Virus record (IMG/VR): IMGVR_UViG_3300020459_000068
Coordinates: 1 to 24,136 of that record
Length of the DNA stretch: 24,136 nt
Strand: one strand, 5' to 3'
Source: a virus
The position numbers and the translations under genes are program-made. The notes below the pieces were generated by a model, which had not been told where the DNA came from, made no database searches, and saw only the letters and a program-made list of their open reading frames with translations. Below are positions 1 through 13,850 of the stretch, in pieces; position 1 is the stretch's first letter, and every line of letters starts with the position of its first letter.

Positions 1-501
1 TTCAAAAGGGTCATAAATAAGCTTAAGTCTGAGTACAAGGTTATTGAGGTACAAACACTTGAAGCGGACGATTCTTTAGGGATTTACGCTACCAAACACC
101 CCGGAAATATTATTGTCTCTCCTGATAAGGATATGAGACAGATCCCGGGAAAACTCTATGACTTTAAAGAAGTAGTAGACATCACACCAGAAGAGGGTGC
201 TCGATGGCATCTAATACAATCGTTAGCTGGGGATAACACCGACGGCTACGCAGGATGCCCTTCAATAGGCATCAAAAGAGCTACAAGTATCTTCCAAGAG
301 AAAGGATACACATGGAAAGCAGTCGCTGAGACCTTCGTAGAGAAAGGCTTGACTGAAGCAGACGCATTAGTTAATGCACGACTCGCACGAATACTTACCA
401 CTGAAGACTTTGACCATGACAAACAAGAACCAATCTTATGGACCCCCGCCCCCGAGTATGGAGTTGACGACGGAGCAAGAGTTCCGGATCAGGACAATTG
501 A
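1..501 (+). CDS. 5'-3' exonuclease, T7 gp6-like (3' part only)
   Basis: The reading frame is open from base 1, so the N terminus lies outside the window; about 166 residues are present. It looks like the FEN/5'-nuclease fold used by T7 gp6: an EADD acidic cluster near residue 22, the SPDKDMRQIPG segment near residue 40 (metal-binding DKD of the family), and GDNTDGYAGCPSIGIKRA near residue 76, which is the helix-three-turn-helix DNA-binding signature (GDxxDxxxGxxGIGxKxA) with a phage-typical variation. In T7 this enzyme removes RNA primers and degrades host DNA to recycle nucleotides, which fits the nucleotide-metabolism genes immediately downstream. The last 44 bases overlap the start of the NblA-like ORF. 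The acidic, Pro-rich C-terminal tail is not conserved in any way I recognise. The family call is secure; the exact orthology to gp6 is inferred from order. Confidence 0.88.
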   Translation, partial: FKRVINKLKSEYKVIEVQTLEADDSLGIYATKHPGNIIVSPDKDMRQIPGKLYDFKEVVDITPEEGARWHLIQSLAGDNTDGYAGCPSIGIKRATSIFQEKGYTWKAVAETFVEKGLTEADALVNARLARILTTEDFDHDKQEPILWTPAPEYGVDDGARVPDQDN

Positions 502-721
502 GATAGCAGTCAATGATCCTAAGACAGAAAAGAAAGATCTGATCACTCTCTTAATGGCTCTGCAAAGACAAAACTTTGTACTGGGCAATGCAGTTACTAA
601 CTTATTAAATTCATGGCCGAAACCACCAACGACCAAGGACCAGAATATTACCGACGAGGTTCCATTGATGTTTGGGATTTTATTAGGGACCAAGAACTTG
701 GATTCCACCTCGGAAACGTAA
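458..721 (+). CDS. nblA: NblA-like phycobilisome degradation protein
   Basis: This is an 87-residue frame whose first ~50 residues align by eye with NblA. It begins MELTTEQEFRIR, against the ELSxEQQFxIR found in cyanobacterial NblA. A conserved Val follows, then a second helix with DLITLLMALQRQ and a terminal LLNSW, matching the second helix of NblA (DFLxxLYxQM...LLKxxW). Host NblA is a small helical adaptor (~55-65 aa) that binds phycobiliproteins and Clp chaperone and triggers antenna breakdown. The extra C-terminal ~37 residues lie almost wholly in the overlap with the next gene and may be dispensable. The start at 458 gives the NblA-like N terminus; an in-frame ATG at 416 would add 14 residues with a PPPPS stretch. 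It overlaps the exonuclease by 44 bases. The match is from memory of family sequences; a small unrelated two-helix protein remains possible. Confidence 0.62.
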   Translation: MELTTEQEFRIRTIEIAVNDPKTEKKDLITLLMALQRQNFVLGNAVTNLLNSWPKPPTTKDQNITDEVPLMFGILLGTKNLDSTSET

Positions 722-876
722 TCAAATATGTATGCCGAGCAGGGTATAAACACGACGACATAGACGACCTATCAAAAGCCATCCATTACTTAAACAATGA
801 AATCGAATACAGAACAAGCGAACGAGTTCAGGACTGCGTACAATATAGTAGACAGTCCAGACAAGACGAGTCGTAG
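613..876 (+). CDS. DUF3310 family protein (T7 gp1.7-related)
   Basis: An 87-residue protein. Residues 12-66 carry the DUF3310 pattern: a YYRRGSIDVWDFIRD segment, ELGFHLGNVIKYVCRAGYK, and DLSKAIHYLNNEIEYR. The family is common in phages; T7 gp1.7, a nucleotide kinase affecting dideoxythymidine sensitivity, belongs to it, but most members are uncharacterised, so a role in nucleotide metabolism here is an inference strengthened by its neighbours (pyrophosphohydrolase and RNR). The last ~20 residues, rich in Arg, Ser and Gln, come from the zone that overlaps the next gene and look unconserved. The gene overlaps the NblA-like frame by 109 bases and the next gene by 80 bases. Confidence 0.8.
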   Translation: MAETTNDQGPEYYRRGSIDVWDFIRDQELGFHLGNVIKYVCRAGYKHDDIDDLSKAIHYLNNEIEYRTSERVQDCVQYSRQSRQDES

Positions 877-1171
877 TAGACAACGAAAGCTAATCGTTGA
901 AGAATTCCGTGAGTTCATGGATGCCGAAGAGTTTCTCTTTAGAAATAACGACCAACTACATGCTGACTGCTTAAAAGAACTCGGAGACCTTGTTTATGTA
1001 GCGTACCAATACGCGGCGAACTTAGGCTGGGATCTTGACGAAGCACTGCGAAGAATACATGCCAGTAATTTATCTAAACTTGATGAGACCGGACATCCAA
1101 TCAAGAGAGGAGATGGCAAGGTCTTAAAAGGACCAAACTATAAACCACCACACCTTAACGACCTGATATAA
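797..1171 (+). CDS. MazG/PRA-PH-like NTP pyrophosphohydrolase
   Basis: A 124-residue all-alpha NTP pyrophosphatase. It shows the family motif EExxE(12-28)ExxD: E35-E36-x-x-E39, then 21 residues, then E61-L-G-D64. The C-terminal third (SNLSKLDETGHPIKRGDGKV, then KGPNYKPPHL) is the tail typical of phage PRA-PH/HisE-like enzymes. The family hydrolyses nucleoside triphosphates to monophosphates and pyrophosphate with magnesium; phage members prefer dNTPs or modify nucleotide pools, while cyanophage MazG has also been discussed as acting on (p)ppGpp, with weak direct support. Here it lies between DUF3310 and RNR, which fits nucleotide pool control. The first ~25 residues overlap the previous gene; the stop directly abuts the RNR start codon, so translation is likely coupled. 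Confidence 0.83.
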   Translation: MKSNTEQANEFRTAYNIVDSPDKTSRSRQRKLIVEEFREFMDAEEFLFRNNDQLHADCLKELGDLVYVAYQYAANLGWDLDEALRRIHASNLSKLDETGHPIKRGDGKVLKGPNYKPPHLNDLI

Positions 1172-2560
1172 ATGGCAAACAAAATAGCACGTACTGGCAG
1201 AGTCCAGTCATGGATAGACGATCCCACCTCACGTCTCCCGGTGTCGTGCACCGTATTTGTAGTAGACGACTCAATGGAGGGAGAGAATGGACTCGAATCA
1301 TCGTGGAGATTTGTATCACATGCTCTACGAAATGGAGCAGGCGTCGCAGTACACCTGTCGAAGTTACGACCCAAAGGAACCGAAAGCATTAAAGGAAATG
1401 ACACACTTGTTGCAAGTGGACCAGTGTCATTCGCAAAAATCTATTCAACATTAAATGAAATTCTTAGAAGAGGTGGCACGTACAGGAACGGGGCGTGTGT
1501 TATTACTCTCGACATTTTTCACCCCGATATTATTGACTTCGTGCAAGCTCCCCGTGCTGAACTTCCTTGGGTCAAGCGATGTATTAACCTCACCCCAAAA
1601 GACTGGAGTGATTCAAACGCTGAAACAAAGGAAGCAATACTTAGAGGAATTGCAAGAGGGGACATATGGCTTGCCAAAATAAAGCACGATCAACATGGAA
1701 ATAGAATCTTTTCTAACGTCTGCCTCGAAGTCTTCATCGGGAGCAGATCCACATGTTTGCTTCAGCACATTAACTTGGGAGCTTGTGACATTGGAGGATT
1801 ACGTTCAGCTTTCGCTGAAGGTATGTCCTCGTTGTGCGACCTCCACGGCAAAACAGGTGTTGGATCTAGTGGGGAATATAAACCGCCCGAAGAGGACCGC
1901 CAAGTCGGACTTGGACTCCTTGGACTAGCTAACTTCTTAAGACAAAACAAAATAACTTATGCCCAGTTTGCTGACTCACTTGAGAAACAGAACAACGGAG
2001 AGTGGGTCGAAGGTACCAGTGGCATCGCAGCACGGGAACTTTACATGGGCATTGAACAAGCTGCGGAGATAGCAAGACATAACAAGATGGATAGAGCATT
2101 CGCCATAGCTCCAACTGCATCTTGTTCATACAGAAGTAAAGATCTCGAAGGCTTCACGTCAACTCCAGAGATCGCACCACCTATATCAAGGAGTGTAGAT
2201 AGAGACTCAGGTACATTTGGGGTACAACATTATGAATATGGTGACGTAGAGATCGCATCCGAAGTTGGATGGGATACATATAAGAAAGTAGCTGATCAAA
2301 TAATGATCATGCTAGATAGAACAGGATTGCTACATGGCTATAGCTTCAATTCTTGGAGTGATATGGTGACTTACGATGAAGCATTTATAGACGAGTGGCT
2401 GAAGAGTCCACAAACGTCTCTCTATTATAGCCTGCAAGTTATGTCAGACGTACAGGATAAGTCAGATGCTTATGCTGCCCTAGATCAGGAAGACGTTGAT
2501 AGTTACTTAGCAGACATATTGAGTAACCCCGAAGAAATTACCTGTGACTGCCAACAATGA
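1172..2560 (+). CDS. nrdA: Class I ribonucleotide reductase, alpha subunit (short form)
   Basis: A 462-residue catalytic subunit that reduces ribonucleotides to deoxyribonucleotides. Visible active-site features: LPVSC with Cys26 (first redox Cys), SNVCLEV at 181-187 with Cys184 (thiyl radical) and Glu186, Cys195 (redox partner) in STCLLQHINLG, PTASCS at 314-319, and LYY with Tyr418-Tyr419, which is the radical-transfer pair specific to class I enzymes. The C terminus ends CDCQQ, matching the mobile reducing Cys pair. There is no ATP-cone domain, and at 462 residues it is far shorter than E. coli NrdA (761). Enzymes of this type in cyanopodoviruses (P-SSP7) were long misannotated as class II; the Tyr-Tyr pair and the beta subunit downstream support class I. 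The stop overlaps the beta start by ATGA. Confidence 0.92.
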   Translation: MANKIARTGRVQSWIDDPTSRLPVSCTVFVVDDSMEGENGLESSWRFVSHALRNGAGVAVHLSKLRPKGTESIKGNDTLVASGPVSFAKIYSTLNEILRRGGTYRNGACVITLDIFHPDIIDFVQAPRAELPWVKRCINLTPKDWSDSNAETKEAILRGIARGDIWLAKIKHDQHGNRIFSNVCLEVFIGSRSTCLLQHINLGACDIGGLRSAFAEGMSSLCDLHGKTGVGSSGEYKPPEEDRQVGLGLLGLANFLRQNKITYAQFADSLEKQNNGEWVEGTSGIAARELYMGIEQAAEIARHNKMDRAFAIAPTASCSYRSKDLEGFTSTPEIAPPISRSVDRDSGTFGVQHYEYGDVEIASEVGWDTYKKVADQIMIMLDRTGLLHGYSFNSWSDMVTYDEAFIDEWLKSPQTSLYYSLQVMSDVQDKSDAYAALDQEDVDSYLADILSNPEEITCDCQQ

Positions 2561-3273: not shown

Positions 3274-3433
3274 GCTCCACAACGATAGGTTGGATGAGCT
3301 GATCAATAGGCTTGAGGATAACTTTGGTTGGAAACCTATCCACCCTAAAGAAGACATACAGTCAATCATGTATCGCGCTGGTCAAGCCAGCGTAATTGAA
3401 TACATCAAATCAATAATGGATGAAGAAATCTAA
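3242..3433 (+). CDS. Small hypothetical protein upstream of the portal region
   Basis: A 63-residue protein starting at ATG 3242, inside the end of nrdB; an in-frame ATG at 3203 is possible but lies deeper in nrdB. It is mostly helical by composition: HNDRLDELINRLEDNFGW, then KPIHPKEDIQSIMYRAGQ and a C-terminal VIEYIKSIMDEE. I recall similar small proteins in other cyanopodoviruses at this place, but I know no function. The stop overlaps the next start as TAATG, so it is coupled to the proline-rich protein. The regular pattern of charged and hydrophobic residues argues that it is real. Confidence 0.65.
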   Translation: MTTGISLNTLKLHNDRLDELINRLEDNFGWKPIHPKEDIQSIMYRAGQASVIEYIKSIMDEEI

Positions 3434-3720
3434 TGTGTCTATTTAATCAAAAGTCATCACCGCCACCACCACCACTACCCCCAGCTCCACCACCACCATT
3501 GCCTCCAGCACCTACTGCACCGCCTCCAGATCCAATCATTAAGGATGTTAATCCAAATGTAAGGAGAGCTAAGAAGGACCGTGGTAACAAAACAAAGGGT
3601 GAGTTCTCTAAAGGAACTGGCTCAATGAGAATCAAAAAGAATACTGGTGTTAACACAGGCGGCGGAGCTGCTGATGGAGGTCTTAACACTGGTGCACAAA
3701 CAGTTCGTAAGGTGTTCTAA
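3433..3720 (+). CDS. Proline-rich small protein in the T7 gp7.3 position
   Basis: A 95-residue protein with three parts: a short MCLFNQKSS head, a run of about 27 residues made almost only of Pro with Ala and Leu (residues 10-36), and a basic Gly/Thr/Asn-rich tail with KGTGSMRIKKNTGVNTGGG. Immediately before the portal gene, T7-like phages carry gp7.3, a small virion protein needed for adsorption, whose C terminus is also basic and Gly/Ser-rich. The positional and compositional likeness suggests a gp7.3-like structural role, but the Pro run is not a feature of T7 gp7.3 and no real homology can be claimed by eye. The coding strand shows no frame break and the stop abuts the portal ATG. A purine-rich AAGG lies upstream of the portal start within its last codons. 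Confidence 0.68.
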   Translation: MCLFNQKSSPPPPPLPPAPPPPLPPAPTAPPPDPIIKDVNPNVRRAKKDRGNKTKGEFSKGTGSMRIKKNTGVNTGGGAADGGLNTGAQTVRKVF

Positions 3721-5289: not shown

Positions 5290-6075
5290 ATGGCAGAAAC
5301 ATTATCGTATGACAACACACCAGACACAGAAGTCCTAACCGATGAGGAACAGGACTCTCTGGAAGTCGGTGAAGAGTTAGAAGCTCAACACGAACAACTA
5401 CTAGCAGGTAAGTATAAGAACGCTGAAGATCTTGAGTCGGCTTACCTAGAACTACAAAAGAAACTAGGTACTAATGACGAAGAAGGAGAAGGAAGCGAAG
5501 AAGAAGGAGAAGGAGATTATGAGGAGGTACCTGATGCGTCTCCTGCGGTCAGTTTAATAGAGGAAGCCTCGGCTGAATACTATGAAAACGATGGTGAACT
5601 AACTCCTGAGACAATTGACAAGTTCTCTAGTATGAGTAGCCAAGATTTAGTCAATGCTTACATTGAAATTCAAAAGAATAATCCACAAGCTCAGCAAACT
5701 CAAGCAGTTGAATTAAGTGATTCAAATGTTAATGAGATACAAAATGCTGCTGGTGGATCGAATGCTTATGACCAACTAACTAGCTGGGCTGCTGACAATT
5801 TACCTGATCAAGAGATAGATGCTTTTGACAACCTTATAGATAGTGGCAACGTCGCTGCTATCAAGATGGGATTAACAGCTTTGCAATCTAAGTACAACGA
5901 CGCTAATGGATATGAAGGACGAATGCTACAAGGCAAGAGTCCTAATTCTTCTGGTCAGGTATATAGAAGCCAAGCTGAATTAGTACAAGCCATGGGTGAT
6001 CCTCGCTATGAGAATGATCCAGCCTATAGACAAGACGTCATAGAAAGATTAAACAACTCAGACCTTAATTTCTAA
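5290..6075 (+). CDS. Capsid assembly scaffolding protein, T7 gp9-like
   Basis: A 261-residue strongly acidic protein directly after the portal gene, where T7 has gp9 scaffold. It carries LAGKYKNAEDLESAYLELQKKLG (residues 39-61), a helix recurring in podovirus scaffolds, then a Glu/Gly run (EGEGSEEEGEGDYEE, 66-80), a helical centre, and a C terminus with GDPRYENDPAYRQDVIERL, a conserved scaffold C-terminal motif (capsid contact in relatives). It guides assembly of gp10-like capsid subunits into the procapsid and is then lost. A GGAG lies just ahead of the start. In T7 the capsid gene follows directly; here about 2.4 kb of auxiliary genes intervene. The stop overlaps the next tiny ORF as TAATG. 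Confidence 0.9.
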   Translation: MAETLSYDNTPDTEVLTDEEQDSLEVGEELEAQHEQLLAGKYKNAEDLESAYLELQKKLGTNDEEGEGSEEEGEGDYEEVPDASPAVSLIEEASAEYYENDGELTPETIDKFSSMSSQDLVNAYIEIQKNNPQAQQTQAVELSDSNVNEIQNAAGGSNAYDQLTSWAADNLPDQEIDAFDNLIDSGNVAAIKMGLTALQSKYNDANGYEGRMLQGKSPNSSGQVYRSQAELVQAMGDPRYENDPAYRQDVIERLNNSDLNF

Positions 6076-6185
6076 TGGGAAAAAAATTAAACTCACCACC
6101 AAAGAGACCTTGTCCTTCTGGTTTCGTTAGGAACTCTAAAGGACAGTGCGTACAGAAAGGAGTAGGACCAGCTTACAAACCTTAA
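6075..6185 (+). CDS. Tiny basic ORF, 36 aa, with two cysteines
   Basis: A 36-residue ORF begins in the scaffold stop codon (TAATG). It encodes a Lys/Pro-rich peptide, MGKKLNSPPKRPCPSGFVRN, followed by SKGQCVQKGVGPAYKP. The CPSGFVRNSKGQC spacing (11 residues between the cysteines, with a Gly-Phe after the first) resembles a minimal disulfide or metal loop. I do not recognise the family. Coupled start, absence of rare-looking codons and position support translation, but so short a frame could be chance. Confidence 0.45.
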   Translation: MGKKLNSPPKRPCPSGFVRNSKGQCVQKGVGPAYKP

Positions 6186-6186
6186 T

Positions 6187-6306
6187 ATGAGTCTTGGACA
6201 AAACAAAGCCACTTTAATTAAAACAAAAATTGAAGCAGGTTATGCTTCTGAGTCTGAGAAAGTATGGCTCAAGAAATGGAATAAGAAAAAGTTGAAAATT
6301 AAATAG
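6187..6306 (+). CDS. Tiny lysine-rich ORF, 39 aa
   Basis: A 39-residue ORF starting one base after the previous stop. It has an amphipathic helix-like run (ATLIKTKIEAGYASESEKVW) and a very basic end, LKKWNKKKLKIK. No known family. Charge would suit nucleic-acid or membrane binding, but that is only composition. It is the last ORF before the 53-base gap leading to hli; its stop sits in the left arm of a possible stem-loop. Confidence 0.42.
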   Translation: MSLGQNKATLIKTKIEAGYASESEKVWLKKWNKKKLKIK

Positions 6307-6348
6307 GTAGTCATGGCGACCTGAACTTTCATCATCGCCTAACACCTA
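6304..6348 (+). promoter_or_regulatory. Possible stem-loop ahead of hli-psbA
   Basis: The 53-base gap before hli (6307-6359) can fold: TAGGT 6304-6308 with ACCTA 6344-6348, and GGCGA 6315-6319 with TCGCC 6335-6339, enclosing a 15-base loop. There is no T-run after it, so it is not a standard terminator; an mRNA processing or stability element ahead of the photosynthesis genes is conceivable. No promoter hexamers or Shine-Dalgarno sequence stand out in the gap. Confidence 0.3.
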
Positions 6349-6359
6349 CTTTGAATTCA

Positions 6360-6557
6360 ATGACAACTACTACCGAATACGGTAAGCAGAACATCTTCGC
6401 AAAAGAACCACCGATACAACTTATGGAAAACCATAACCACGAAGGCGATCCTATGCACATCGCTGAAGAGCTTAATGGACGAGTAGCAATGCTTGGTATT
6501 GTTGCAGCTCTAGGTGCATACCTAACAACCGGACAAATTATTCCCGGCATATTTTAA
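6360..6557 (+). CDS. hli: High-light-inducible protein (Hlip)
   Basis: A 65-residue single-helix member of the chlorophyll a/b-binding superfamily. The defining segment is AEELNGRVAMLGIVAALGAY (residues 35-54), with the ExxNGRxAMxG chlorophyll-binding motif, followed by the short TTGQIIPGIF end typical of phage Hlips. Such proteins sit in the thylakoid membrane, bind chlorophyll and carotenoid, and protect photosystem II or newly made D1. I chose ATG 6360; a TTG at 6351 is in frame but adds only three residues. The stop directly abuts psbA, so hli and psbA form one unit, as in other clade B cyanopodoviruses. Clear Shine-Dalgarno is lacking. Confidence 0.93.
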   Translation: MTTTTEYGKQNIFAKEPPIQLMENHNHEGDPMHIAEELNGRVAMLGIVAALGAYLTTGQIIPGIF

Positions 6558-7613
6558 ATGAACACAACAGCCACATTAACTAAACCTACAAACTGGAATA
6601 GCTTTTGTGACTGGGTTACTAGCACCAACAACCGACTTTACGTTGGTTGGTTTGGTGTGCTTATGATTCCCGCACTCTTAACAGCAGCTACTGCCTTTCT
6701 AATTGCATTCGTAGCAGCACCACCCGTAGATATTGATGGAATACGTGAACCAGTTGCAGGCTCACTACTCTATGGAAACAACATCATCTCGGGGGCAATC
6801 GTACCCAGCTCAAATGCAATCGGTCTCCACTTCTATCCCATCTGGGAAGCAGCCAATCTCGATGAATGGCTTTACAACGGTGGACCCTACCAGCTCATCG
6901 TCTTCCACTTCCTTATCGGTATCTCAGCTTACTTGGGACGCCAATGGGAACTTAGTTACAGACTAGGAATGCGACCATGGATTTGCGTAGCTTATTCCGC
7001 ACCAGTTGCAGCATCCTTTGCTGTCTTCCTCGTGTACCCCTTCGGTCAGGGGAGCTTCAGTGATGGTATGCCTCTTGGTATTAGCGGTACTTTCAATTTC
7101 ATGTTCGTATTCCAAGCCGAACATAATATCCTCATGCATCCTTTCCACATGCTCGGTGTTGCTGGGGTATTCGGCGGTGCTCTTTTCGCTGCAATGCACG
7201 GAAGTCTTGTTACTTCCTCACTTATTAAGGAAACAACTGGCTTAATTTCTCAGAACTATGGATACAAGTTCGGTCAAGAGGAAGAGACGTATAACATTGT
7301 TGCGGCTCATGGGTACTTTGGGAGACTTATCTTTCAGTATGCCTCTTTTAATAATAGCCGGAGTCTACATTTTTTCCTTGCTACTTTCCCCGTCGTTTGC
7401 ATTTGGCTTACCTCTATGGGAATCTCCACTATGGCTTTTAATCTCAACGGCTTTAACTTTAACCAGTCAGTCGTTGCTGCCAACGGAAGAGTCGTCCCCA
7501 CTTGGGCTGATGTTCTCAACCGTGCCGACTTAGGCATGGAAGTAATGCATGAAAGAAATGCACATAATTTCCCGCTTGATCTAGCGGCTAAAGAGATCGC
7601 ACCCGTCGCTTAA
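6558..7613 (+). CDS. psbA: Photosystem II D1 protein
   Basis: A complete, uninterrupted 351-residue D1 of the phage type. Functional residues are in place (own numbering is one less than the standard): Tyr160 (redox-active Yz), Asp169, His189, His197 chlorophyll ligand, His214, Ser263 and His271 around QB and iron, and the C-terminal manganese ligands His331, Glu332, His336, Asp341 and Ala343. A short 8-residue tail after Ala343 would be removed by CtpA. Residue 129 is Gln (standard 130), as in the D1:1 form. The PEST-like region reads KETTGLISQ at 224-232, instead of the RETTExES of many hosts. The protein replaces photodamaged host D1 so that photosynthesis supports phage growth. It sits right after hli, with no Shine-Dalgarno of its own. 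Confidence 0.98.
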
Positions 7614-7618
7614 CGATA

Positions 7619-7691
7619 CTTCCGTTCATCCCTTCGGGACGCATGAAACCTTAGACATGGAACGGGGTCTGAGGTACTTGGAGTTTTCCAA
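7619..7691 (+). promoter_or_regulatory. Glutamine riboswitch, Downstream-peptide type (candidate)
   Basis: The gap after psbA folds as a compact RNA. P1 pairs CCGTTC 7622-7627 with GAACGG 7660-7665. P2 is a CCC-TTC-GGG hairpin at 7630-7638, followed by the ACGCATGAA junction. A pseudoknot pairs ACCTTAGAC 7648-7656 with GTCTGAGGT 7667-7675 (nine pairs, one G-U), crossing P1. This order, with CGTTCA, GGGACGCA and TGGAACGGGG, is how I remember the Downstream-peptide RNA motif of marine Synechococcus, Prochlorococcus and their phages, a relative of the glnA RNA; both bind L-glutamine. Next to it, TTGGA 7678-7682 can pair with TCCAA 7687-7691, which would hide the GGAG (7680-7683) of the small ORF at 7691: a likely translational expression platform. 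Ligand and direction of control are inferred. Confidence 0.75.
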
Positions 7692-7753
7692 TGACAATCA
7701 AAGTCACATACAAGTATCGCGGCGTTTCTTACACAAAAGCTAAAACTATTTAA
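7691..7753 (+). CDS. Riboswitch-controlled 20-aa peptide, DUF4278-like
   Basis: A 20-residue ORF with a good Shine-Dalgarno (GGAG 7680-7683, seven bases before ATG). It reads MTIKVTYKYRG then VSYTKAKTI. The TYxYRGVSY core resembles the N-terminal strand of DUF4278 proteins, short peptides found in cyanobacteria and cyanophages. The Downstream-peptide RNA motif is named for sitting ahead of such short ORFs, which agrees with the element just upstream. Molecular function is unknown; in hosts related riboswitches control small inhibitors of glutamine synthetase, but this peptide does not look like one. Its stop lies four bases before the next gene, so it may also serve as a leader for translational coupling. 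Confidence 0.65.
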   Translation: MTIKVTYKYRGVSYTKAKTI

Positions 7754-7757
7754 TTTA

Positions 7758-8114
7758 ATGAAATCTATTGCACTTGCTCTAGCAGCATCCACCTTTGCAG
7801 TACCAGCATTCGCAGGTCCATACGTGAATGTAGAATCCAATGCTAACTACACTGGATCTGATTACACATCAAGAGCTACCGACCTACACGTAGGTTATGA
7901 AAACAATATCGGCGATCTTGCTTACTACATACAAGGTGGTAAGACAATTAATGCTGCTGATGGCGTTGATGCAGAGTCTAATTTCTCTGGGAAGCTTGGT
8001 GGTTCTGTCTCTGCTACAGATAAACTTGGTCTCTATGGTGAAGTATCTTTCGCACAAGTGGAAGACGCTGACAACACATACGGCACAAAGTTAGGAGCTA
8101 AGTTCTCTTTCTAA
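7758..8114 (+). CDS. Exported small beta-barrel-like outer membrane protein
   Basis: A 118-residue protein with a clear signal peptide (residues 1-19, MKSIALALAASTFAVPAFA, cleavage after AFA). The mature ~99 residues alternate polar and hydrophobic residues with Gly/Tyr-rich strands (LHVGYENNIGDLAYYIQGGK, GKLGGSVSATDKLGLYGEVS) and end LGAKFSF, with the C-terminal Phe recognised by the BAM machinery. This suggests a small outer-membrane barrel of perhaps eight strands. I recall similar proteins of unknown role near psbA in cyanomyoviruses. No Shine-Dalgarno is visible, and the start is four bases after the riboswitch peptide, so its translation probably depends on that of the peptide. Possible roles include altering permeability or blocking superinfection; none is shown by sequence. 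The stop overlaps the next ORF as TAATG. Confidence 0.78.
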   Translation: MKSIALALAASTFAVPAFAGPYVNVESNANYTGSDYTSRATDLHVGYENNIGDLAYYIQGGKTINAADGVDAESNFSGKLGGSVSATDKLGLYGEVSFAQVEDADNTYGTKLGAKFSF

Positions 8115-8257
8115 TGGCACATCAATCAGACAAGATGAGAGCTTCAATTACATCCTTTGATGTAGAAGCTCATCACAACAAACCTGAAGAGCACGAAGAA
8201 ACTAAAGAGAAGTTCGATGAGGACATCTCTTTAGAAGAAGCTCTCTCCACATTATAA
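8114..8257 (+). CDS. Small acidic ORF, 47 aa, sharing the capsid N-terminal MAHQS
   Basis: A 47-residue ORF starting in the preceding stop codon (TAATG). It encodes MAHQSDKMRASITSFDVEAH followed by a Glu/Lys-rich acidic half ending SLEEALSTL. No family is recognised. The first five codons match those of the capsid gene at 8533 except for one synonymous base (CAA/CAG). Composition suggests a soluble, possibly helical protein. Coupling to the outer-membrane-like gene makes co-expression likely. Confidence 0.5.
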   Translation: MAHQSDKMRASITSFDVEAHHNKPEEHEETKEKFDEDISLEEALSTL

Positions 8258-8262
8258 GTAAC

Positions 8263-8364
8263 ATGTCAGAAAACGTTAGAGGTTGGAAGCAAACTACTAC
8301 AGGTAGAAAGCAAATTCCAATCACAGTTGCTAAGAAAACAACTAAAAAAAAAGAGACTGAATAA
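8263..8364 (+). CDS. Tiny basic ORF, 33 aa
   Basis: A 33-residue ORF five bases after the previous stop, ending immediately before the terminator hairpin. It encodes MSENVRGWKQTTTGRKQIPI and a tail of Lys and Thr (VAKKTTKKKETE). No family is recognised; as the last frame before a terminator, its position suits a real last gene of the transcript. Confidence is limited by length. Confidence 0.42.
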   Translation: MSENVRGWKQTTTGRKQIPITVAKKTTKKKETE

Positions 8365-8371
8365 GTCTCTG

Positions 8372-8409
8372 GAAGAGAGGCACCTCAGAGTCGGACCTCT
8401 CTTTCTTTT
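8372..8409 (+). terminator. Rho-independent terminator at end of the psbA cassette
   Basis: AAGAGAGG at 8373-8380 pairs with CCTCTCTT at 8396-8403 (eight base pairs), enclosing a 15-base loop, and is followed by TCTTTT. It closes the transcript carrying hli, psbA and the small ORFs and separates them from the capsid gene. Confidence 0.72.
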
Positions 8410-8532
8410 GGCTTTCAGCCCCCGAGGGGATACCTGTTAGCCGTCTAGACGGTGGGAAAGACCACAAAAATATCGATTTTAATTTGCGCGCATAGGTTAA
8501 TACATACCCCTTACATTTTAAATTAAAGAAAA
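8410..8532 (+). promoter_or_regulatory. Structured leader / candidate promoter region of the capsid gene
   Basis: After the terminator there are 123 non-coding bases. The first half is GC-rich and self-complementary: a CCC-CGAG-GGG hairpin (8420-8429), a perfect 12-base palindrome CCGTCTAGACGG (8441-8452), and GTGG-GAAAGA-CCAC (8452-8465). The second half is AT-rich and contains TTAATACATACCCC (8497-8510), whose TAATAC is shared with the T7 promoter core, though the rest fits poorly (about 9 of 20 positions). A late phage promoter or an RNA processing site here would suit the abundant capsid protein. The Shine-Dalgarno ahead of 8533 is weak (AAAG). Confidence 0.45.
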
Positions 8533-9678
8533 ATGGCACATCAGTCATCTGATTTAACTACCTCGCTTACACGCCCGGGTCAGTTAAACTCAGCAAACGA
8601 CGCCAGAGCCCTTTACCTTAAATTGTTTTCAGGTGAGATGTTCAAAGGATTCCAGCATGAGTCAATAGCTCGTGACATGGTAATGAAGAGAACATTGAAG
8701 AATGGAAAATCTTTGCAGTTCATCTACACAGGTAGAACAACTGCGGAATTCCATACCCCCGGAAATTCAATACTAGGTAATAGCGACGGCGCACCTCCAG
8801 TTGCAGAAAAAACTGTGACTTGCGATGATCTCCTTATCAGTTCAGCTTTCGTTTATGAGCTCGATGAGACACTTGCTCATTATGAGCTTCGTGGAGAGAT
8901 ATCAAAAAAAATCGGCTACGCTCTTGCAGAGAAATACGATAAGTTAATCTTTAGAGCTATAACAAAAGGTGCAAGACTTGCTTCACCTGTTTCTAAGACA
9001 AACTTTGTTGAACCCGGTGGTACTCAGATTCGTGTAGGTACAACTACAAACGATTCAGATGCTTACAGTGCAACAGGCTTGGTAAATGCATTTTATGATG
9101 CAGCAGCAGCACTCGACGAAAAGGGAGTTTCCTCTCAGGGTCGTTGTGCAGTATTAAACCCACGTCAGTACTATGCTCTAATCCAGCAAACAGGCGACAA
9201 CGGTCTAATCAACAGAGACGTTCAAGGATCTGCATTGCAGTCCGGAAAAGGTGTTGTTGAGATTGCAGGCATCAAGATCTACAAGTCAATGAACATTCCG
9301 TTCCAAGCTAAGCACGGTGTTGCTTATGGCGGAACAACAGGTGAGACAGCACCCGGTAACTTAGGTTCTCATGTCGGTACAGCTATCGGCGATGCAAGAG
9401 CTTCTGTTACAGGTTTAAACAACAACTACGGTAACTCTACTGACTTCGCTAAGTCATGTGGTCTTATCTTCCAAAAGGAAGCCGCAGCAGTTGTAGAAGC
9501 TATCGGTCCACAGGTACAAGTTACTTCAGGGGACGTTTCAGTGGTTTACCAAGGAGATGTCATTCTAGGTAGGTTGGCAATGGGAGCCGACTTCCTAAAC
9601 CCAGCAGCCGCAGTTGAGCTATATACAGGTACTACTGCTCCAGCAGCATTCGGTGCTACATATCCAGCTAACGCTTAA
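8533..9678 (+). CDS. Major capsid protein, T7 gp10-like
   Basis: A 381-residue protein of the HK97 fold as used by T7 gp10A (345 aa in T7). Recognisable parts: GQLNSANDARALYLKLFSGE near residue 17 with FKGFQHESIARDMVMKRTLK, the region that in relatives forms the N arm; KSLQFIYTGRTTAEFHTPG near 60 (E-loop area); VTCDDLLISSAFVYELDETL near 95; and RCAVLNPRQYYALIQQ near 205, a conserved podovirus capsid motif. It forms the icosahedral shell with the scaffold and portal encoded upstream. There is no visible gp10B-type frameshift site near the end: the frame stops at TAA and a strong terminator follows at once. It has its own leader and its own terminator, so it can be a separate, highly expressed transcript. 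Confidence 0.95.
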   Translation: MAHQSSDLTTSLTRPGQLNSANDARALYLKLFSGEMFKGFQHESIARDMVMKRTLKNGKSLQFIYTGRTTAEFHTPGNSILGNSDGAPPVAEKTVTCDDLLISSAFVYELDETLAHYELRGEISKKIGYALAEKYDKLIFRAITKGARLASPVSKTNFVEPGGTQIRVGTTTNDSDAYSATGLVNAFYDAAAALDEKGVSSQGRCAVLNPRQYYALIQQTGDNGLINRDVQGSALQSGKGVVEIAGIKIYKSMNIPFQAKHGVAYGGTTGETAPGNLGSHVGTAIGDARASVTGLNNNYGNSTDFAKSCGLIFQKEAAAVVEAIGPQVQVTSGDVSVVYQGDVILGRLAMGADFLNPAAAVELYTGTTAPAAFGATYPANA

Positions 9679-9694
9679 TTTATACATTTTATAC

Positions 9695-9719
9695 GGGGGG
9701 CTTCGGCTCCCCTTTTTTT
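9695..9719 (+). terminator. Strong terminator after capsid, abutting the next start codon
   Basis: GGGGGGC 9695-9701 pairs with GCTCCCC 9706-9712 (seven pairs, one G-U) around a TTCG tetraloop, followed by seven T (9713-9719). The next base begins the ATG of tail tubular protein A. It corresponds in place to the T7 terminator after gene 10. Read-through is required for all tail and core genes unless a promoter lies inside the capsid gene. Confidence 0.93.
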
Positions 9720-10331
9720 ATGACTACTTCAATACAAGCAAGCGATACAGAACTATCCGCAGTTAACTCAATATTGAGTAGCATAGGTCAATCGCCAATA
9801 ACTACTCTTAACTTTACTAACCCCGAAGTTTCTTTAATACATAACCTACTAATGGAATGTAATAAGGATGTCCAGAATGAGGGTTGGCATTTCAATGTAG
9901 AAGAACATGTAAAAGTATCTCCGGATGCTAATGGTCAATTCTTAGTTCCAACAAACTATCTCAGATATGATATACACGATGGTCAAGTTGATCGTAATCG
10001 TGATGTCGTAGTAAGAGATGGCAAGATCTATGACAACGTTCTACATACAGATATATTCACTTCGGATTTTTATTTTGATATAACCAGACTCGTAGCATTT
10101 GTTGATGTACCTGCTGTTATCCAGAGATACATCATAGCTAGTGCTGCTGTAAGAGCCGCTACTCAATTGGTATCAAATACAGAATTAGTTAAACTACTCA
10201 ACTTAAATAAAGAAAAAACTAAAGCTAACGCAACTGAATACGACTGCGAGATGGGTGATCATTCCTTCTTTGGTTGGCCGCATGAAAGTTCATATAGACC
10301 TTATCAACCGTACAACGCACTAGCACGCTAA
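9720..10331 (+). CDS. Tail tubular protein A, T7 gp11-like
   Basis: A 203-residue gatekeeper protein (196 in T7) forming the ring between portal and nozzle. The start region ELSAVNSILSSIGQSPITTL (residues 12-31) is the conserved gp11 beginning (LEAVNxxLxxIGExPVxSL). Further marks are LLMECNKDVQNEGWHFNVEEH and LRYDIHDGQVDRNRDVVVRDGKIYDNVLHTDIF, followed by a C-terminal helix region (VIQRYIIASAAVRAATQL). The ATG follows the T-run of a terminator with no Shine-Dalgarno; no other start is available without losing the conserved part, so initiation is unusual. The stop overlaps gp12 as TAATG. Confidence 0.92.
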   Translation: MTTSIQASDTELSAVNSILSSIGQSPITTLNFTNPEVSLIHNLLMECNKDVQNEGWHFNVEEHVKVSPDANGQFLVPTNYLRYDIHDGQVDRNRDVVVRDGKIYDNVLHTDIFTSDFYFDITRLVAFVDVPAVIQRYIIASAAVRAATQLVSNTELVKLLNLNKEKTKANATEYDCEMGDHSFFGWPHESSYRPYQPYNALAR

Positions 10332-13300
10332 TGGCAAATATCACGCAAACGATTCCCAACTTAACTCAAGGTATTTCACAACAGCCTGACGAATATAAGA
10401 TCCCGGGACAAGTCAAGGATATGGTTAATACCTTACCTGACATAACTCAAGGATTACTGAAGAGACCTGCTGGTAAGTTCGTGGGATCTTTGAGTGATGG
10501 GAGTAAGAATTCATCCGCTAATGGAAGATGGTTTCATTACTATCGAGACGAGACAGAACAATACATAGGACAGATCCATCAAGACGGTACTGTCCGTATG
10601 TGGGATTGTTTAACAGGTGCAGAAAAGAATGTTGTTGATGCAACTACCAGTGGTTCGCTTACTTATGTAGACGATACAACTGGTAGTTATAAATATCTGA
10701 AACATTCTGGTGACGAGGATATTCAAACCTTAACTCTTAACGACTTTACCTATTTAACAAATAGGCAAGTTAAGACAGAGATGGGTGCACTAACAGAACC
10801 TGACACAAATTATAAGAAAGAAATTTTTGTCGAATTAAAAACTCTTTCGTATGCGAAGCAGTATGCGTTAAACATTTTTGATCAAGATGGAAGTCAGACC
10901 TCTCACTTTTCTACAGTAACCACCGCCACACGAATCAATGTTGAACTTGTCAGATCGTCAAATAATTATTGCGACACTAACGGCTTCATGCGTACTCATG
11001 CTAATCGTGGAACGAATCCATACGGTAGGTGTGATGACTCGGCTGGAGACGGAAGAGATGCGTACGCGCCCAACGTCGCCACAAGGATATTTTCAATCGA
11101 TTCAGGAAAAGCCTTAACAGATGAAGGAGCTACAGGTGGTATCAAGGCAGATACAAACCAAAGCGATATTGAATATGACTATAACGTCAGCGTCTATAAC
11201 CAAGCAGGTACAGCAGGTCAGTCAGGAAGAAAGAATCTCTACTTCCGTATAGCCACGACTGGTCAGTCAGTACCTTACACAACTGGATCAGGAGAAACTC
11301 AGGCAACCACATACCAAGCAAGATACACAACTACCTACGACCTACTACATGGTGGAGAGGGTTGGCTTGCTGGTGATTATTTCTATGTCTGGATGAAAGA
11401 TGGATTTTATAAGGTAACTGTTGAAACTATCAGTACATCTAAAGTTCAAGCAAACCTTGCGCTAGTCAGACCACAGCCAACTCCATTTGATACAGAGACA
11501 ACCATTACTGCCGAGAGTATTCTTGGTGATATAAGAACAGCTATCGTTGCTGGTGGAAATATATCAGATTCAGATATAACCACGATTGGTACAGGATTAC
11601 ATATTAAACGTAATGCAGTGTTCAATGCTTCTACTCCAGTAGGAGAGTTACTTAATGTTGTTGCTGGAAAAGTTAATGACGTTGGTGATTTACCTTCTCA
11701 GTGTAAACACGGTATGGTTATAGAAGTAGTCAATAGTTCTGCTGACGAGGATAACCACTACGTTAAATTCTTTGGTAATAACGATAGAGATGGTGAGGGT
11801 GTATGGGAAGAATGTGCAGAGCCGGGTAGGAAGATAAGGTTTAAGCGTCATAGTATGCCAGTAGCTCTTATCAGAACTGCTGACGGTAATTTCAGATTAG
11901 CTGAATTAGATGGTGCTACTTATACAATCTCAAGCGTAGACTATACACACCCTCAATGGGATGACTGCATAGTCGGAGACGAGGTCACGAATGCGGAACC
12001 ATCGTTTATTGGTAAAGGTATTAATAAGATGCTGTTCTTTAGGAACAGATTAGCTCTACTAGCAGATGAGAATATTGTCTTATCTAGACCGGGAGATTTC
12101 TTTAACTTCTGGGCTAAGTCAGCTATAGCTTTTGTACCTAGTGATCCAATAGATCTATCTGCTAGTTCGGAATATCCAGCAGTTTTATATGACGGCATAC
12201 AAGTAAATACAGGATTAATTTTATTCACTAAGAATCAGCAGTTCATGCTGACAACAGACAGTGATGTACTAAGTATTCAAACAGCAAAGATCAATGCTAT
12301 ATCCAGCTATAATTTTAACTACGCTACTAATCCTATTTCTCTCGGGACTACGGTGGGATTCCTAGATAATGCTGGGAAATACTCACGGTTCTTTGAGATG
12401 GCTGGTGTGCTCCGAGAGGGGGAACCACAGGTAATAGAACAAAGTGCAGTAGTTTCTAGATTATTCAATAAGGATTTAAAACTTATATCTAACTCAAGAG
12501 AAAACTCAGTCATCTTCTTTAGTGAAGAGGGTACATCTACCTTATATGGGTACAGATATTTCGATCAGATAAATGATCGGAAAATGGCATCTTGGTTTAA
12601 GTGGACTGTCACAGGTGATATCCAATATCACTGTATGCAAGACGATGCACTATATGTAGTGGTTAGGAATAATTCCAAAGATCAGCTATTAAAGTATTCA
12701 TTAAAGATGGATGCTAATACCTTTACTGTTGACACAACAAACAGGGTCCATTTAGATCATTTAATGTCTACGACTGGTTGGTCTTATAATGCAACTACTA
12801 ACAAATCGACAAAGGCAAAGCCAACAGGTTTAGAAAGTACAAACCAATTAGCAGCTTATGATGTTGATGATACTGTTTCCTCTGGAAATCCTACTAATGC
12901 AATTGGTAGATATGCAGAGATAACAGTTGATGGAAGTGATTTAGTACTAACAGGAGACTGGTCAGGTCAAACATTCCTTATTGGTTATTTGTTTACTATG
13001 CAGGTAGACATTCCTACTATCTATTACCGGAAGCAATCTGGTAGTACGTGGCAGTCTGACACTAGAGCTAATACTGTAGTACATAGAGTTAAATTAGGTT
13101 TTGGTCCTGTAGGTATATATGAAACAACTGTCACTAGGACTGGGAAACCTAACTATGATGACTTGTTTGAAGTAACTCCAGCCGATCAATACTTAGCAAA
13201 CTACTCCGGTATATTTGACGATAATGTTTTAAGAACAGTTCCTATATACGACAGAAATACAAACACATCTTTAACTATTAAATCTACACACCCTGCACCA

Positions 13301-13363
13301 GCGACATTACATAACATGACGTGGGAAGGAGTGTATAACAATAACTATTACGAGCGTGTCTAA
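10331..13363 (+). CDS. Tail tubular protein B (nozzle), T7 gp12-like
   Basis: A 1010-residue nozzle protein, longer than T7 gp12 (794). The N terminus NLTQGISQQPDEYKIPGQVK and DMVNTLPDITQGLLKRPAGK is the family signature (xxQGVSQQPxxxRxxGQ...NxxxxxxxGLxxRPP). IGKGINKMLFFRNRLALLADENIVLSRPGDFFNFW near residue 555 is a second signature, followed by PIDLSASSEYPAVLYDGIQVNTGLILFTKNQQFML. The extra length seems to lie mainly around residues 200-320, in a Gly/Thr/Asn-rich segment with three cysteines, and near 820-900. The subunits form the six-bladed nozzle below gp11 and carry the fibers. It is coupled to gp11 by TAATG; its stop overlaps the next gene by eight bases. Confidence 0.94.
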   Translation: MANITQTIPNLTQGISQQPDEYKIPGQVKDMVNTLPDITQGLLKRPAGKFVGSLSDGSKNSSANGRWFHYYRDETEQYIGQIHQDGTVRMWDCLTGAEKNVVDATTSGSLTYVDDTTGSYKYLKHSGDEDIQTLTLNDFTYLTNRQVKTEMGALTEPDTNYKKEIFVELKTLSYAKQYALNIFDQDGSQTSHFSTVTTATRINVELVRSSNNYCDTNGFMRTHANRGTNPYGRCDDSAGDGRDAYAPNVATRIFSIDSGKALTDEGATGGIKADTNQSDIEYDYNVSVYNQAGTAGQSGRKNLYFRIATTGQSVPYTTGSGETQATTYQARYTTTYDLLHGGEGWLAGDYFYVWMKDGFYKVTVETISTSKVQANLALVRPQPTPFDTETTITAESILGDIRTAIVAGGNISDSDITTIGTGLHIKRNAVFNASTPVGELLNVVAGKVNDVGDLPSQCKHGMVIEVVNSSADEDNHYVKFFGNNDRDGEGVWEECAEPGRKIRFKRHSMPVALIRTADGNFRLAELDGATYTISSVDYTHPQWDDCIVGDEVTNAEPSFIGKGINKMLFFRNRLALLADENIVLSRPGDFFNFWAKSAIAFVPSDPIDLSASSEYPAVLYDGIQVNTGLILFTKNQQFMLTTDSDVLSIQTAKINAISSYNFNYATNPISLGTTVGFLDNAGKYSRFFEMAGVLREGEPQVIEQSAVVSRLFNKDLKLISNSRENSVIFFSEEGTSTLYGYRYFDQINDRKMASWFKWTVTGDIQYHCMQDDALYVVVRNNSKDQLLKYSLKMDANTFTVDTTNRVHLDHLMSTTGWSYNATTNKSTKAKPTGLESTNQLAAYDVDDTVSSGNPTNAIGRYAEITVDGSDLVLTGDWSGQTFLIGYLFTMQVDIPTIYYRKQSGSTWQSDTRANTVVHRVKLGFGPVGIYETTVTRTGKPNYDDLFEVTPADQYLANYSGIFDDNVLRTVPIYDRNTNTSLTIKSTHPAPATLHNMTWEGVYNNNYYERV

Positions 13364-13850
13364 ATACATCCACCAAGCAACGGTTGGAGCTGCCCTTGAG
13401 GTGGCTCTCAATCTGCTGCCAGATGATCGTAGTGAAGTACAAGAGGGTCATGGACATGATCCTAAAACAGCATTAGTAGATTCAATCCGACATTGCGACT
13501 CAGTCTATTTTGAAGTACCTAACGGAAAAATAGCAGGGCTTGCAGGTGTCCATGGAAATGGACAAATATGGATGCTCTGTACTCCAGCTATCTACGACTA
13601 CCCACATACCTTTGCTAGAGAAGCTAAAAGATATGTGGATGAACGACGAGAGAAGTTACTGTGGAACATTGTCGATGAACGCAATGAAGTCCATTTAAAG
13701 TTACTTCGCTTTCTAGGTTTTAAGTTTATAAGAAGACTTAATTACGGACCTAATAATTTAACCTTTATAGAGTTTGCCCGTGTGCAGTCCAGCAGCAATT
13801 GGTCCCGCCGTAGGCGCAATGGGATCAGCAATGGAGGCTTCCAGAGCTAA
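13356..13850 (+). CDS. Internal virion protein, T7 gp13-like (DUF2833)
   Basis: A 164-residue protein starting at GTG 13356, eight bases inside the gp12 gene. It matches the DUF2833/gp13 pattern: LPDDRSEVQEGHGHDPKTAL (residues 21-40), GKIAGLAGVHGNGQIWMLCT (57-76) with PAIYDYPHTF, then KLLWNIVDERNEVHLKLLRF (99-118) with LGFKFIRRLNYGP and FIEFARV. The layout is GNAT acetyltransferase-like, as noted for this family; catalysis is not established. T7 gp13 is 138 aa and is needed for proper incorporation of the core. The last ~22 residues, RRRRNGISNGG-like, are encoded in the overlap with the next gene and are probably unconserved. Confidence 0.85.
   Translation: MSKYIHQATVGAALEVALNLLPDDRSEVQEGHGHDPKTALVDSIRHCDSVYFEVPNGKIAGLAGVHGNGQIWMLCTPAIYDYPHTFAREAKRYVDERREKLLWNIVDERNEVHLKLLRFLGFKFIRRLNYGPNNLTFIEFARVQSSSNWSRRRRNGISNGGFQS

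Follow-up and report, generated by a model that had tools for sequence, protein, structure and literature searches.

A probable viral nblA gene overlapping exonuclease and DUF3310 genes in a T7-like cyanophage

Gene content and start of the nblA-type gene

The window, by which we mean the whole stretch of DNA analysed here, is a 24,136-base IMG/VR record and represents part of a T7-like cyanophage. It encodes an exonuclease (cut), a DUF3310 protein, a MazG/PRA-PH-type protein, ribonucleotide reductase, portal, hli, psbA, capsid and tail genes. The features referred to below are the following.

1..501, plus strand: T7-like exonuclease (gp6 type), cut by the window start (phrog_107, 3.2e-37)
416..721, plus strand: nblA-type CDS, 101 amino acids (conserved upstream ATG; phrog_27006, 4e-32 for the longer frame 374-721)
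416..501, plus strand: two-frame stretch, where the exonuclease ends and the nblA-type gene begins (third-position diversity in the exonuclease frame)
458..616, plus strand: NblA-like helix-loop-helix core, residues 15-67 (hhalign to cyanobacterial NblA; AlphaFold2)
502..612, plus strand: stretch read as the nblA-type gene only (dN/dS in two clades)
613..721, plus strand: two-frame stretch, variable tail of the nblA-type gene and start of DUF3310 (DUF3310 PF11753 match; tail length variation)
613..876, plus strand: DUF3310 protein, 'nucleotide kinase' in PHROGs naming (PF11753, 9.2e-15)
797..1171, plus strand: MazG/PRA-PH-type nucleotide pyrophosphohydrolase (PF01503, 7.3e-07; phrog_671, 1.2e-32)
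1172..2560, plus strand: ribonucleotide reductase (PF02867, 5.2e-23)
6351..6557, plus strand: high-light inducible protein, hli (phrog_178, 2.8e-26)
6558..7613, plus strand: psbA, photosystem II D1 (PF00124, 9.6e-87)

The order of exonuclease, nblA-type gene, DUF3310 and/or MazG, and ribonucleotide reductase is common to the window, S-TIP37, P-SSP7, P-SSP2, S-CBP3 and others. Judged by portal identity, the nearest isolate is P-GSP1 (84.1%), followed by P-SSP7, P-SSP2 and P-SSP3 (78%) and by NATL1A-7 and S-TIP37 (70.8%), and P-GSP1 also came first in a nucleotide comparison of window positions 6000-13400. The G+C content of the window, 41.1%, is nearer that of the P-SSP7 and P-GSP1 regions (40.6% and 41.6%) than that of S-TIP37 (50.0%). 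Scans for promoters and terminators around the nblA-type gene gave no more matches than in shuffled sequences, and PADLOC returned no match. Elsewhere in the window, positions 3433-3720 hold a 95-amino-acid ORF with a long Pro-rich N-terminus and without a Pfam match at E≤0.001, and positions 7758-8114, downstream of psbA, encode a cyanophage outer-membrane-like beta-barrel protein (PF24653, 1.8e-45).

The gene was originally predicted as an ORF at 458-721, and such an ORF is present on the plus strand as described, with an ATG at 458, a stop codon at 719-721 and 87 codons reading MELTTEQEFRIR...LQRQ...LLNSW. It shares 44 bases with the exonuclease frame, which runs to 501, and 109 bases with the DUF3310 frame (613-876), again as predicted. 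Relatives are encoded at 232 places in IMG/VR viral contigs, and counts of relatives given in this study rest on the best 80 of these. The frame is open in all 80, so that the ORF stands as a real gene, whereas its start does not. An in-frame ATG lies at most 30 codons upstream of the match in 80/80 relatives, the nearest one being 14-18 codons before the match in 79, while Met occupies the position equivalent to 458 in only 13. Because the upstream ATG is kept throughout and Met at 458 is not, the true start is almost certainly 416, which makes the gene 416-721, its product 101 amino acids and its overlap with the exonuclease 86 bases. The conserved N-terminus of this longer product includes a Pro-rich stretch and is followed by a conserved core of residues 15-67 (458-616). 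After the conserved Trp67 the C-terminal tail, which lies over DUF3310, varies from 11 to 34 residues among relatives and probably exists owing to DUF3310.

Distribution, annotation and selection

A tblastn search of the phage collection matched 38 records, of which 37 are cyanophages or cyanophage-like uncultured phages; the remaining one, a Staphylococcus phage, was a weak and unrelated match. The family profile found nothing at E≤1 in 9515-10a, NATL2A-133, P-SSP10, S-CBP2, SS120-1, Syn5 and P60. With none of these seven further genomes matched, the gene is not universal in T7-like cyanophages, and the seven come from both hosts, Prochlorococcus and Synechococcus. Annotation was examined in 21 of the 37 cyanophage records, mainly RefSeq duplicates having been left out. 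A CDS in the nblA-type frame was annotated in 11 of them and none in the other 10, ten of the 11 CDSs begin downstream of the conserved ATG, and no record (0/21) carries the name NblA; the expectation that gene callers easily miss this gene is thereby borne out. In S-RIP1 (L247, 401-511) the family profile matches in two frames, so this copy is interrupted, either by a frameshift or through an error in sequencing. NblA-type genes also occur in T7-like cyanophage DNA, namely contigs L227 and L228, filed in genome bins (contig 12 of G538 and contig 3 of G314). The bins are picocyanobacterial, and their copies were considered as host intermediates and rejected, since these contigs carry a T7-like DNA polymerase, exonuclease and portal; being phage DNA in bins, they were not counted as host genes.

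A frame overlapped at both ends, with a length-variable tail past residue 67 and lacking a CDS in those 10 records, could be imagined as an accidental open frame whose conservation is borrowed from the exonuclease and DUF3310 frames. Over the same 156 bases in which the nblA-type frame is open in all of the best 80 of the 232 relatives, however, the exonuclease/DUF3310 frame is open in none and the antisense frame in 26, which also led to rejection of an antisense ORF at 436-753. Where only the nblA-type frame is read (502-612, 111 bases), dN/dS was 0.186 in the window's clade, represented by 13 distinct and long enough sequences out of 17, and 0.056 in the corresponding stretch of a second clade of 18 sequences. 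The non-overlapped part of the gene is under purifying selection in its own frame. Inside the 416-501 overlap the third-position diversity of the exonuclease is 0.087 in the window's clade, down from 0.227, and in the exonuclease overlap of the second clade it is 0.004, down from 0.293 (permutation p 0.002 and 0.00005, respectively, over sites with phylogeny ignored). This silencing is confined to the overlap, within which exonuclease first positions, equivalent to third positions of the nblA-type gene, gain diversity. In L227 (7583-7795, minus strand) the gene lies free between exonuclease and DUF3310, the latter judged by eye, and the overlaps are therefore not essential to it. The selection and overlap results refute the idea of an accidental frame, to which we give next to no credence. 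The original prediction was to be abandoned if conservation in relatives followed the exonuclease and DUF3310 frames; it follows the nblA-type frame.

The exonuclease of the relatives L005 and L018 ends three codons before its usual stop, and the last exonuclease residues in the overlap are thus dispensable.

Relationship to cyanobacterial NblA

The Pfam NblA profile (PF04485) matched the window protein at 16.8 bits (E 0.0094) over 56 amino acids, at 15.1 bits for 87 and at 14.6 bits for 101. The match anticipated in the original prediction is thus present, but the window protein alone stays below the curated cut-off of 25 bits, which is a scoring convention and not a biological feature, and a Pfam match of this kind falls short of proving NblA identity on its own. 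NCBIfam NblA gave no match for the window protein, the P-SSP7 copy had no Pfam match at E≤1, and a single-sequence search of the PDB gave nothing useful.

A profile of 27 phage copies was aligned to one of 54 NblA sequences from cyanobacteria, a set from which six divergent or phage-like sequences had been left out. The hhalign score was 95.9% over 54 columns (E 6.3e-9 for one comparison) and 96.2% for the core only; none of 200 column shuffles exceeded 6.7%, and a reversed profile gave 0.19%. Ten of the 54 sequences had first been chosen by the phage profile, which introduces circularity, and in the stricter set without these ten the scores were 89.5% (E 2e-6) and, for the core, 91.4%. An HMM of the NblA set gave each of the 16 phage copies tested 15.8-30.3 bits (21.5 for the window), and none of 960 shuffled decoys scored above 7.8. 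When the HMM was built from the stricter set, 14 of the 16 copies were above the best decoy (8.8 bits), the window among them at 15.1, and the S-B28 and WH11-B copies fell below it. Dropping the ten circular loci lowers the scores and leaves the conclusion of NblA homology unchanged.

Reciprocal searches led to the same family. The phage profile matched 12 of 291 cyanobacterial genomes at E≤0.001. Ten of these matches fall on NblA loci that a separate Pfam search had also detected; the other two, in G085 and G060, lie inside a 443-amino-acid ORF and are not NblA. Searched against 177,635 distinct PDB sequences at E≤10, the core profile gave three matches only, all of them NblA (E 0.11, 0.69 and 0.8). 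Pfam NblA was matched at E≤0.1 by 24 of the 27 phage copies, with a best value of 3.5e-7, and the Pfam cut-off is exceeded by the copy of S-TIP37, at 28.0 bits, which occupies the same slot past the exonuclease and is the sole Pfam NblA match in its genome, and that of the T7-like phage contig L227, at 28.1 bits. Ten residues (L17, T18, E20, Q21, Q50, Q52, N53, N58, L63 and W67) are invariant in all 27 copies. As indicated by hhalign, the reciprocal genome search and the same-slot orthologues, the homology spans the whole NblA domain.

Structure prediction with AlphaFold2 on the 56-residue core, from an alignment that held no cyanobacterial NblA sequence, gave helices at 5-19 and 25-51 with a mean pLDDT of 90.7, and the modelled core matches the short helix, loop and long helix of NblA. 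The first model, of the full 101 amino acids, had a pLDDT of 67.0. Weak and unspecific matches, with no NblA chain listed, were all that structure searches returned, both for this full-length model and for the 56-residue core hairpin (Foldseek and VIA-align).

Compared with cyanobacterial NblA (PF04485; structures 1OJH, 3CS5, 2Q8V and 2QDO), the window protein has in common the ELTxEQxF start and, according to the model, the arrangement of helices, with a conserved Leu close to where the long helix ends. It differs in scoring below the Pfam cut-off when taken alone and in a two-residue insertion in the loop, while the phage copies as a group have a longer N-terminus with the Pro-rich stretch, an invariant QxQN pattern and Trp, and the variable tail over DUF3310. 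Four residues conserved in 27/27 phage copies, L17, E20, Q21 and L63, appear to fall in the regions of the ClpC and phycobiliprotein motifs of NblA, and L63 aligns with Leu51 of Anabaena NblA. Work by Bienert in 2006 reportedly found that Leu51 and Lys53 of the Anabaena protein matter for antenna binding. At the position equivalent to this Lys, two before the conserved Trp, Lys is found in 57 of the best 80 of 232 relatives and Asn in the window.

A different origin for the protein would be a small helical phage protein, unrelated to NblA and with another function in host take-over or replication, whose likeness to NblA arose by chance. The sub-threshold Pfam score of the window protein, the absence of NblA chains among the structure matches and the position of the gene among DNA-metabolism genes are all compatible with this, as is its assignment in PHROGs, where ORF 458-721 matches phrog_27006 at 1.7e-32 and the family is filed as of unknown function. 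Such an explanation is nevertheless very improbable given an hhalign score far beyond those of the column shuffles, even with the stricter set, the 10 of 12 genome matches that are NblA loci, and the same-slot orthologues above the Pfam cut-off. Comparison of profiles, searches in both directions and orthologues at the syntenic position together thus support the identification of the product as an NblA homologue, as had been predicted from a two-helix pattern, and the absence of any NblA profile match, which would have spoken against it, was not what was found. Phrog_27006, of which the window protein is a member, is here identified as NblA-related.

Proposed function, published viral nblA and hosts without phycobilisomes

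We consider the ORF a genuine viral nblA whose product is homologous to cyanobacterial NblA and most likely acts as NblA does, with a probability of roughly 0.78. NblA is described as a protein of helix-loop-helix type whose dimers are four-helix bundles and which, as an adaptor, links ClpC to the proteins of the phycobilisome (PMC7966870). It contacts ClpC close to the N terminus and phycobiliproteins close to the C terminus, although structural mimicry is given as an alternative proposal for its action (PMC4103541). Encoded in the DNA-metabolism region by a gene overlapping those of the exonuclease and DUF3310, the phage product would be a small helix-loop-helix protein acting as a putative dimer. 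The C-terminal end of the dimer would bind its presumed target, a phycobiliprotein, and the N-terminal motif would bind the ClpC chaperone, whereby the host Clp protease would be directed to the antenna protein. Degradation of the antenna could then free amino acids and alter light harvesting during infection, with a presumed effect on host pigment. The role that fits best is that of a putative adaptor acting on phycobiliproteins.

The original prediction had gone further and combined the gene with psbA and hli into a programme that removes light-harvesting antennae while maintaining photosystem II. Both psbA and hli are present; the programme itself is hypothetical. It may not apply to the window's phage in the form first proposed, because the nearest isolates include phages of Prochlorococcus, whose strains are described as lacking phycobilisomes.

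In a 2025 study, Nadel and co-workers reportedly worked with a recombinant T7-like cyanophage and detected nblA in a sizeable proportion of the T7-like cyanophages of the ocean. PMC12892361 refers to the study (Nadel 2025, Nature 648:434) for the finding that NblA is encoded by many cyanophages in the ocean, together with an estimate that viral NblA reduces light capture by up to 5% in global photosynthesis. According to PMC9602691, an earlier prediction (Nadel 2019) placed nblA in 14 cyanopodoviruses and one cyanomyovirus, and the cyanopodovirus copies form one cluster. For the group to which P-GSP1 belongs, a table in a 2017 survey gives no photosynthetic genes other than hli and psbA (PMC5332604). 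The suggestion that the family is undercounted in T7-like phages had already been addressed in print, as far as these accounts go (Nadel 2019 via PMC9602691; Nadel 2025 as cited), and with 14 cyanopodovirus predictions in 2019 and a viral function published in 2025 the gene is not new in kind. Viral nblA in T7-like cyanophages is already known, and the window copy is an additional, genuine case. Relatives of the window gene occur in the 37 cyanophage records, S-TIP37 included, and we infer that the published cyanopodovirus nblA is the gene of this same slot; what the window adds is one more copy and its overlapping anatomy. The NblA proteins of freshwater cyanophages (Ma-LMM01, MaMV-DC and PaV-LD) and of marine cyanomyoviruses (S-TIM5 and S-SCSM1) are likewise virus-borne. 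Phycobilin loss is reported upon expression of the freshwater copies, from which marine cyanophage NblA is distant in the published tree (PMC9602691).

Correct detection of viral nblA matters because viral NblA is reported to lower global light capture. Here, an nblA-type gene lies under the Pfam cut-off and inside overlapping frames, and is missing or late-started in most annotations examined; a start at 416 together with a family profile would mend its annotation.

The host range of these phages raises a question of cargo. P-GSP1 is recorded on Prochlorococcus MED4, and P-SSP3 and NATL1A-7, also recorded on Prochlorococcus, carry intact copies. P-SSP7, whose record names no host and which we take to infect MED4, carries an nblA-type gene as well. 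Prochlorococcus is described as having chlorophyll antennae, and neither phycobilisomes nor nblA (PMC7439483, PMC2984593). In phages of such hosts the NblA fold and the role of ClpC adaptor may have been kept while the cargo changed to, for example, residual phycoerythrin, a component of the Pcb antenna or a host regulatory protein, and the window's phage may be included. This possibility, which we hold to be unlikely, draws on the intact copies in P-SSP3, NATL1A-7, P-GSP1 and P-SSP7 and on the closeness of the window to P-GSP1 by portal and to P-SSP7 and P-GSP1 by G+C content. With the first NblA HMM, four Prochlorococcus-phage copies scored 17.2-18.7 bits, below 8 of 10 Synechococcus-phage copies; however, the stricter NblA set removes this difference (13.3-14.0 bits for the Prochlorococcus phages and 7.7-19.8 for the Synechococcus phages), and the hint that the former had drifted from NblA is lost with it. 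Such phages may also infect Synechococcus, since the P-SSP2 record names WH8017 as host. We put forward only as a doubtful proposal that T7-like phages of Prochlorococcus keep an NblA homologue owing to a switch of cargo, as a ClpC adaptor that delivers to degradation a host protein other than those of the phycobilisome, and the window's phage, nearest P-GSP1, may be one of them. Action on phycobiliproteins remains the preferred reading, and the role of NblA in a host without phycobilisomes becomes a sharper, testable question.

The P-GSP1 copy itself, PRQG_00005 (L249, 2238-2468, minus strand), is strongly diverged, with 34.7% identity to L044 and loss of the conserved Trp. It directly precedes ribonucleotide reductase, with no DUF3310 or MazG annotated in between.
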